From: Bifidobacterium breve | GTDB lineage: Bacteria > Actinomycetota > Actinomycetes > S36-B12 | Assembly: GCA_945861925.1 (NCBI GenBank) | Contig: CAMAWO010000009.1 | Coordinates: 1 to 34,212 of the forward strand | Length of the DNA stretch: 34,212 bases | Direction: 5' to 3' | Shown here: one piece after another, positions 14,748 to 25,475 of the stretch | How positions within the stretch are numbered: the stretch's first letter is position 1 | How the letters are laid out: the number at the start of each line of letters is the position of its first letter | The notes under the pieces: model-generated | What the model saw: the letters and a program-made list of their open reading frames with translations, nothing else | Told to the model about the DNA's origin: nothing | Database searches by the model: none | Position numbers and translations under genes: made by a program

Positions 14748-14802
14748 TGGGACAACGAGCAGAATCCTGGCCGAATCGGCCGAAATTCCGCACGTTCTCC
14801 CA
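14748..14802. repeat. 55-bp imperfect palindromic repeat unit (copy A)
   Basis: tgggacaacgagcagaatcctggccgaatcggccgaaattccgcacgttctccca. TGGGA/TCCCA ends and central ggccga-a-tcggcc. Its reverse complement matches unit B1 (24548-24602) at 44/55 positions by hand count. Confidence 0.75.
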
Positions 14803-14826
14803 GCTCATGGGACAAACGGGGAGGGG

Positions 14827-23759: not shown

Positions 23760-24545
23760 ATGATCGGTCAGCGCTCCACCCGTGACCCCCTCGCCGAACT
23801 AGCCGCGGATCCGCCGACCGCAACCCTCCTCGCGGCTGCGCGCGCCGAAATCGACTCGCTCCTGTGGCGGCGAGATGTTCGAACGCATGCAGCTGCGGTG
23901 GCGACCTCGTCTGCCGAGCGAGGGGCCCGTGATTCCGCTGCGATCGACGGCGCCGACCTCGCGGTGGCCGACGCTTCGCCCATGGGCCGGGTCCTTGATG
24001 CCGCAATGAGGCTCACCGCCGCGATCCCGGGGCAGGTCGAGGTGTTTGCCACCTCGCCGCTGCAGGCGCTCGCGCACCTTCATGCGCTCACCGCCACCGG
24101 CTTCGTGCCGGACGAGGAACTCGGGCGGCCCCGCGCGGCCGAGCGGGCCGATGATCCACTCCACCTCGGCGTCTTGCCCTCGGCGGTCCTTGCTGCCGAG
24201 CGACTGTCGCTGCTGGCGCGCACGCTCACCACCCCGACCGAGGCGCCCGCACTGCTTGTCGCGGCCATTGCCCACGCGGAACTTGCGGTGATACGACCGT
24301 TCACCTGGGGCTCGGGCATGGTTGCGCGGGCTGCCATCCGGCTGGTGATAGCCAGTCGCGGGGTGGATCCATCACTGTTCAGCATCCCGGAGCATGGGAT
24401 GTTCGAGATGGGTCGGCCGGCCTACGTTCGCGCACTGCAGGGGTATTCATCGGGGACCCGTGAGGGCGTGCTCGCCTTCATCGGGTGGCAGGCCACCGCC
24501 TGCGCCCAAGGCGCCACCGCTGTCCCCACCCCGTTTGTCCCATGA
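23760..24545 (+). CDS. Fic/DOC-like fold protein with degenerate catalytic motif (often annotated 'oxidoreductase')
   Basis: Fic-like inhibitory-helix pattern 'RDSAAIDGADLAV' and degenerate Fic motif 'HAELAVIRPFTWGSGMVARAAIRLVIASRGVDPS'. Same position and layout as the actinobacterial family near acs and the HAD gene. Confidence 0.55.
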   Translation: MIGQRSTRDPLAELAADPPTATLLAAARAEIDSLLWRRDVRTHAAAVATSSAERGARDSAAIDGADLAVADASPMGRVLDAAMRLTAAIPGQVEVFATSPLQALAHLHALTATGFVPDEELGRPRAAERADDPLHLGVLPSAVLAAERLSLLARTLTTPTEAPALLVAAIAHAELAVIRPFTWGSGMVARAAIRLVIASRGVDPSLFSIPEHGMFEMGRPAYVRALQGYSSGTREGVLAFIGWQATACAQGATAVPTPFVP

Positions 24546-24677
24546 AATGGGAGATCGAGCAGAATTCCGGCTGATTCCGCTCCGATTCTGCAGGTTGTCC
24601 CAGGCTGGGAGAATCTGCAAAATTCGAACCGAAACGGCTGGGTTTTCTCCGTTTGTCCCATGTAATGGGACAAACGG
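24531..24677. repeat. Composite repeat block bounded by 12-bp perfect inverted repeats, containing two 55-bp units (B1, B2)
   Basis: CCGTTTGTCCCA (24531-24542) ... TGGGACAAACGG (24666-24677). Internal units 24548-24602 and 24606-24660 are each exactly 55 bp with TGGGA...TCCCA ends. Confidence 0.75.
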
Positions 24678-24682
24678 AGAAA
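24644..24682. terminator. Large perfect hairpin between convergent genes (candidate bidirectional terminator)
   Basis: tttctccgtttgtcccat-gta-atgggacaaacggagaaa: perfect 18-bp arms with 3-nt loop. The outer T/A pairs act as a T-run in each direction. Confidence 0.7.
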
Positions 24683-24689
24683 CAGGGGG

Positions 24690-25475
24690 TTAGGCGCGTT
24701 GGGCCTTTCGGCGGGCGTACCAGGCGATCCCGAGTGCGACCGCGCCGAGCGCAACACCTGCCCCGGCGGCCGCAGCGGCCTGCTTTCCATCGATCCCGAC
24801 CCGCATCGCCACCGGCTTTCGGAAATCCATGATCGGCCAATCACGCTCGTTGGCGATTGCGCGAAGGCTGCTGTCGGGATTAACAGCAACGGGGTGGCCG
24901 ACCAAGTCGAGCATCGGCAGATCGGTGTGCGAATCGGTGTAGGCGAAGGACTCGGAAAGGTCGTACCCGTGCTCTGCGGCGAGCGCGCGCATAGCGTCAG
25001 CCTTGCCCTCGCCGTAGGCGTAGAACAGGATTTCACCCGTATAGTGGCCATCCTCGATGGCCACCTGGGTGCCGATCGCAATATCGGCCCCGAGCCGCTC
25101 ACCGATCGGCTCGACGACGTCGGTGCCACTCGACGAAATGATGATGACGTCGCGGCCGGCGGCCTTGTGGAAGGCAATGAGCTCGACGGCCTCCTGATAA
25201 ATCATTGGATCGACGATCTCATCGAGGGTCTCCGCGACGATCTGACGAACCTGGCCGACGTCCCAGCCGGTCACGAGTTTTGACATGTACTCGCGCATCG
25301 ATTCCATCTGTTGGTGGTCGGCGCCCGAGGCGAGGTACACGAACTGTGCGTACGCGCTGCGCACGACATCGCCCCGCCCGATGAGCCCACCCTTGTACAG
25401 CGGCTTTGCGAACGCGAAAGAACTCGACTTCGCAAGGATCGTCTTGTCGAGGTCGAAGAAGGCTGCTGATCCCAT
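24690..25475 (-). CDS. HAD-IB family phosphatase (SerB-like)
   Basis: 'AAFFDLDKTILAKSSSFAFAKPLY', 'VIIISSSGTDVVEPIGERLGADIAIGTQV', 'AYTDSHTDLPMLDLVGHPVAVNPDSSLRAIA'. Confidence 0.92.
   Translation of the reverse strand: MGSAAFFDLDKTILAKSSSFAFAKPLYKGGLIGRGDVVRSAYAQFVYLASGADHQQMESMREYMSKLVTGWDVGQVRQIVAETLDEIVDPMIYQEAVELIAFHKAAGRDVIIISSSGTDVVEPIGERLGADIAIGTQVAIEDGHYTGEILFYAYGEGKADAMRALAAEHGYDLSESFAYTDSHTDLPMLDLVGHPVAVNPDSSLRAIANERDWPIMDFRKPVAMRVGIDGKQAAAAAGAGVALGAVALGIAWYARRKAQRA

Follow-up and report, generated by a model that had tools for sequence, protein, structure and literature searches.

Length-locked, helically phased arrays of palindromic dyads past gene ends in one actinobacterial family: possible sites for a DNA-bending protein

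The array in the window

The locus raises the question of what a block of nested palindromes is doing between two convergent genes. Interspersed palindromes are usually explained as RNA hairpins or transposase footprints, and an earlier note on the window (the whole 34,212-nucleotide stretch of DNA that was analysed) had proposed a non-autonomous REP/MITE-like or RNA-structural element of no named family, an interpretation that is partly supported by the results below.

The block (24531-24677) consists, when the sequence is read directly, of two 55-bp units inside perfect 12-bp outer arms. The left outer arm (CCGTTTGTCCCA, 24531-24542, + strand, read directly) is a half-site of the first dyad, the 5-bp core of which is TGAAA (24543-24547, centred on an A/T position at 24545; read directly and from the alignment). 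Unit 1 (24548-24602), dyad-symmetric with TGGGA...TCCCA ends, matches the R1 model with an E value of 1.5e-18. The core of the middle dyad is GGC (24603-24605), 3 bp rather than the usual 5, as it is in the ortholog of genome G003. Unit 2 (24606-24660), also 55 bp and dyad-symmetric, was placed by alignment and by its match to the R1 model, and is followed by the core of the third dyad, TGTAA (24661-24665, centred on an A/T position at 24663, read directly), and the right outer arm (TGGGACAAACGG, 24666-24677, + strand, read directly and from the alignment), a half-site of that dyad. An inverted-repeat search found a perfect 18-bp inverted repeat around the third dyad (24644-24682, halves 24644-24661 and 24665-24682). 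The two units with their GGC spacer, the outer inverted repeats and the terminal 18-bp hairpin had all been described correctly. The block can be stated more simply as three dyads, centred on 24545, 24604 and 24663, that bound two units, with both dyad-to-dyad steps equal to 59; the earlier note's count of two units holds, and where one of its fields speaks of three 55-bp units, it is the bounding dyads that number three.

The array fills the intergenic gap between a Fic/DOC domain gene (23760-24545, + strand), whose stop codon falls within the array's left edge, and a convergent HAD-family hydrolase gene (24690-25475, - strand), which ends at 24690. A second array of the window (14748-14819, + strand) is composed of a 55-bp unit (14748-14802), a GCTCA core (14803-14807) and an outer arm (14808-14819), with 7 bp between its end and the stop codon of a PemK-like gene. 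The folding z-score of the first block is -7.1/-7.7, palindromes of the form TTTGTCCCATNNNATGGGACAAA with up to three mismatches number 22 in the genome versus 0 with a reversed control pattern, and the block is well beyond chance.

Distribution of the family

The window comes from a draft genome (G000), the 334 contigs of which total 3.67 Mb at 87.6% completeness and 6.2% contamination. A sequence-only model, built on a gapless alignment of 23 unit copies from this genome, located about 18 loci in it and 8-16 in each of four genomes of the same genus; with these and with the copies recovered by BLAST and pattern searches in the genome and its relatives, the suspected unnamed family of dispersed palindromic intergenic repeats was borne out. 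Two versions of one locus are present in the G000 assembly (L150 on contig C251 and L094 on contig C74, about 89% identical), in line with the reported contamination.

A search with exact arms gave a patchy family, and a relaxed dyad-pair pattern reached more genomes: of the 166 genomes of the order that were searched, 14 have dyad pairs, and these 14 belong to one family and four genera; the reversed control pattern had 0 matches in the same 166 genomes. In a fifth genus (g11), the exact-arm search turned up one array. Units are present in the metagenome-assembled genomes Actinomycetales bacterium RI_321 and Actinomycetota bacterium K_Offshore_40m_m1_268, which by their coordinates are G020 and G011. 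Matches in the wider class outside the order are taken as chance because they are single, have unrelated spacings and differ little from the reversed control (2 genomes). Arrays were thus found only in this actinobacterial family, in the order and a wider sample of the class, and no match came from records of phages and plasmids.

Dimensions and sequence of the dyads

The consensus of 130 distinct dyads from 11 genome sets is CGTTTSTCCCR-NNWNN-YGGGASAAACG, with A or T as the central base in 118 sites. In the window's genome, all 23 aligned copies have an identical 12-bp outer arm, and the inner half-sites are less conserved than the outer arms; better-kept outer arms would equally fit transposon ends. 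The symmetric positions of the unit that are invariant in the same 23 copies are GG2-3/CC53-54, G12/C44 and A16/T40, around an A/T centre. A variant outer end, CATTTCATCCATNATC in place of CCGTTTGTCCCA, was seen at four loci (L107 on G000:C205, L123 on G003:C81, L104 on G000:C49 and L111 on G003:C158), the first of which comes after a tRNA gene. Many arrays end on one side at a unit edge, not at an outer arm, and at one locus (L108 on G000:C51) one dyad half lies in local 25-bp tandem duplications.

The arrays are locked in length. Although unit lengths from 30 to 140 bp were allowed in the search, clean units measure 55 bp in four genomes (G000, G003, G004, G020) and 56 bp in a fifth (G011), with one unit of 66 bp. 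Of the 73 half-site pairs that lie within 40 bp of each other, 71 enclose a 5-bp core, and the distance between neighbouring dyads is 60 bp (49 pairs), 61 bp (9), 50 bp (4) or 71 bp (1), the few other spacings being scattered and derived from degenerate sites. Each site holds one to three dyads.

For the most part, the sites of one genome share a 5-bp core that differs from the cores of other genomes: CGACG in 17 of 18 sites of G087, CTAAG in all seven sites of G094, CCTCC in 12 of 16 sites of G004 and CGTAG in 17 of the sites of G020. The cores of G000 are mixed, and those of genus g1 are less uniform than in other genomes.

Base-pairing tests

If the symmetry served an RNA hairpin, as the earlier note had suggested in calling the block RNA-structural, the paired positions should covary. 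They do not, either within the units or in the outer arms of the dyads. Standard pairs make up 67.3% of the positions tested in the 23 units of the window's genome, equal to the shuffled mean (67.3%), and complementarity within units equals complementarity across units in all genome sets tested. Among the 130 dyads of 11 genome sets, pairing of the outer arms (0.758) equals that of a within-genome shuffle (0.758), and pairing at the S positions is below the shuffle; the sole exception is the R/Y pair beside the core, which is slightly above it (0.938 versus 0.885, p 0.01). The strong predicted folds are explained by the palindromic consensus. Arms that do not covary within genomes indicate that the symmetry belongs to duplex DNA and not to a selected RNA hairpin, and the RNA reading was rejected on these tests. 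No intrinsic terminator (a hairpin with a U-tract) was found in 24300-24900, where shuffled sequences gave 0.4, and all Rfam matches were far below the gathering threshold.

Helical phasing of the unit interiors

Inside the units, A/T patches recur every 10.5-11 bp. By column permutation, the p-value of this periodicity is approximately 1e-4 in G000 and G004, 1e-4 to 0.002 in G020, 1e-4 to 0.018 in G087 and 1e-4 to 4e-4 in the pooled other genomes of genus g6; the periodicity is weakest in G011 (0.014-0.074), and all of these p-values overstate independence because units and genomes share ancestry. Between G000 and G020 the interiors are only 0.335 identical, which is near chance, and yet the unit length is kept. 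Since dyads 60 or 61 bp apart are separated by about six helical turns, dimers bound to them would face the same side of the DNA.

Placement at gene ends and history of the loci

Within the genus, 28 arrays lie between convergent genes, 22 between tandem genes and 2 between divergent genes, versus 9, 48 and 40 of the other gaps at the same loci that are 50 bp or longer (Fisher p 5e-9 for the convergent excess and 3e-7 for the divergent avoidance); the corresponding numbers for the other genera are 24, 26 and 3. Genes were called by a simple caller based on codon usage, which may have misjudged individual contexts. For genes that end at an array, the median distance from stop codon to array is 9 bp. 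Neighbouring genes include mdh, icd, gltA, dapD, meaB and infB, and twice a tRNA gene.

For most G000 loci, the orthologous junction carries an array in at least one other species, with flanks that are 71-95% identical, and what changes between orthologous sites is mainly the number of 60-bp units. The Fic/HAD site has two units in G000 and G003 but a single dyad in G001; at one other site, relatives have a decayed dyad or nothing. The mdh-icd junction provides the longest series: nine genomes of genera g1 and g6 have a two-dyad array there with a spacing of 60 or 61 bp, at varying distances from the mdh stop and the icd start, in a tandem gap as short as 84 bp, and in G020 and G094 the cores at this junction are those of their own genomes. 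The array is absent from mdh-icd in G001, G029, G086, G091 and G092 and in the genomes read from other genera. Its presence requires at least five changes on the mdh tree, so loss, regain or both have occurred.

Gene content differs between genomes at some sites. Between dapD and gltA, an AbiEi-like gene is bounded by arrays in G000 (L096:2484-3722) and in G011 of another genus (L186:1489-2850), the two proteins being 45% identical; the same site holds other genes and no arrays in G001 and G003. At another junction, two small genes that look by eye like a toxin-antitoxin pair are found in G000 (L158 on C8), where G003 has an array and G001 one dyad. In G087, two paralogous tRNA genes (L223 on C2 and L229 on C106) each have a similar two-unit array; transposition was considered and rejected for this pair, which is a segmental duplication because the upstream tRNA gene is duplicated too.

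Comparison with known systems

Several families of interspersed or dispersed repeats are similar to the arrays in part. The BOX elements of Streptococcus pneumoniae are likewise interspersed and modular, with internal modules that vary in number, but differ in sequence and lineage and are not known to have helically phased dyad spacing. The neisserial NIME/dRS3 repeats are intergenic mosaics in which short CCC...GGG inverted repeats alternate with longer units, but in another taxon, with another sequence and with a spacing that is not locked. The matS and Noc sites are dyads dispersed in tens of copies per chromosome and served by a dedicated dimeric protein, but they are single, not in tandem at six helical turns, and are not tied to gene ends.

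The arrays also compare with the REP and BIME elements of E. coli and other bacteria (GTAG and CGTC super-families, PMC3733652), which like them are short dispersed palindromes, often paired, that lie mostly between convergent genes or genes in the same direction. The arrays differ from REPs and BIMEs in having a fixed spacing of 60-61 bp in helical steps, a core that changes from genome to genome and no sign of selection on the stems. The end tag GTAG/CGTC is not on the invariant outer arm TGGGACAAACGG of the aligned copies; these letters occur only in G020 and G087, where they stand in the central core of the sites and never at an end. The Y1 transposase domain (Y1_Tnp, PF01797) had 0 matches in the drafts of five carriers (G000, G001, G003, G011 and G020), versus 5 of 14 control genomes positive, and the reading of the block as a REP served by a RAYT was rejected accordingly. 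With end tags and Y1 transposase both absent, the arrays should not be filed as REPs; they are best read as BIME-like in position, and a BIME in the full sense would also bind DNA gyrase, IHF or Pol I. Gyrase, which has been described as binding the REPs of E. coli (cited in PMC3733652), was kept as an analogy only, as a core of 5 bp, an odd number, does not match a cut with a 4-bp stagger.

Proposed function and its alternatives

Symmetry without covariation, spacing by helical turns and A/T patches in phase fit a dimeric DNA-bending protein that sits on one face of the helix; together with cores that are specific to each genome at fixed positions, they point to a system of protein and DNA. 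The balance tips slightly towards the dyads being duplex sites for a putative sequence-specific dimeric protein, and the whole reading, in which the length-locked and helically phased arrays are phased sites for a putative DNA-bending protein, is given an even chance. From the computed patterns we infer protein binding, the dimeric state, DNA bending and the boundary function alike. A putative sequence-specific protein would bind each dyad as a dimer; dimers on neighbouring dyads, approximately six helical turns apart, would face the same side; and the DNA between them, with its helically spaced A/T patches, would bend or wrap more readily. One to three dyads just past gene ends might then form a small nucleoprotein boundary that handles supercoils or shields neighbouring genes, as has been proposed for gyrase-binding BIMEs. 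Such a topological or boundary role is suggested only tentatively and is on the doubtful side. A counterpoint to the whole reading is that the array is dispensable at given sites, being absent from mdh-icd in five genomes and reduced to one dyad at the Fic/HAD site of G001.

The earlier note's freely moving MITE does not agree with copies that keep to orthologous gene junctions in different species and in two genera, but earlier mobility may hold: the arrays might be non-autonomous MITE/REP-like repeats with 12-bp terminal inverted repeats that were moved in trans, are now mostly fixed and vary in unit number by slippage or recombination. Perfect outer arms that stay invariant as the inner half-sites drift, dispersed copies with a common core per genome, presence and absence differences at some sites and tandem-looking duplicates of units in G011 and G094 all speak for such an element. 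It is nevertheless unlikely, given that the five carriers searched have no Y1 family transposase, that the sites compared include no clean pair of insertion and empty site with a target duplication, that orthologous junctions are kept at 71-95% flank identity and also across genera, and that decaying copies with diverged interiors would not be length-locked and helically phased. The dyads also have the anatomy of core sites for a site-specific recombinase, with inverted half-sites of 10-13 bp around an overlap of 5-7 bp that must match between partners; this would explain conserved arms around a free core common to one genome, orthologous sites that differ by whole units, and the AbiEi-like gene between arrays at dapD-gltA. 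Loss of whole units is explained equally well by slippage between repeats, recombinases are not known to require an A/T-centred core of always odd length (5 bp), and phasing at six turns is needless for recombination between distant sites, so that recombinase sites are judged decidedly improbable.

At the level of RNA, a terminator, a stabiliser of mRNA 3′ ends or a processing hairpin would account for very stable predicted folds just past stop codons, and REPs have been proposed to act in this way (PMC3733652). Against this, covariation is lacking in units and dyad arms, 24300-24900 has no U-tract terminator, no Rfam match is above its gathering score, and between genes in tandem, as at mdh-icd, efficient termination would come at a cost; the chance that the arrays act in RNA is considered small. 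A CRISPR-like series, in which palindromic repeats of about 27-31 bp recur every 60-61 bp between variable spacers of constant length, would share the period and the spacer length, but is hardly credible for many scattered loci of just one to three dyads, with interiors that have common symmetric invariant positions in the genus and A/T phasing across genera.

Returning to phased protein sites, a cognate protein, should there be one, would represent a new recombination system or a new organiser of the chromosome, and one could follow directly, along the natural series of mdh-icd junctions, how a protein and its scattered sites change together. The boldest reading, which is rather unlikely, is that a dedicated putative DNA-binding protein of this one actinobacterial family recognises six-turn-phased dyads after gene ends and shifts its preference for the 5-bp core between species, the sites being rewritten together in place; this would be a system of chromosome architecture new to science.

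Palindromes outside the arrays

A 60-bp near-perfect hairpin with TGGGACAAACG ends was noticed in a Coriobacteriia metagenome-assembled genome (L054, JAUNEQ010000005.1); no palindromes of the family occur elsewhere in that genome, and the hairpin is probably unrelated to the arrays. Nine viral contigs (L198-L206) have one copy of the palindrome each, with no second dyad within approximately 200 bp; in eight of them it is a single TTTGTCCCAANNNTTGGGACAAA-like palindrome near a gene start, in an operator-like position.
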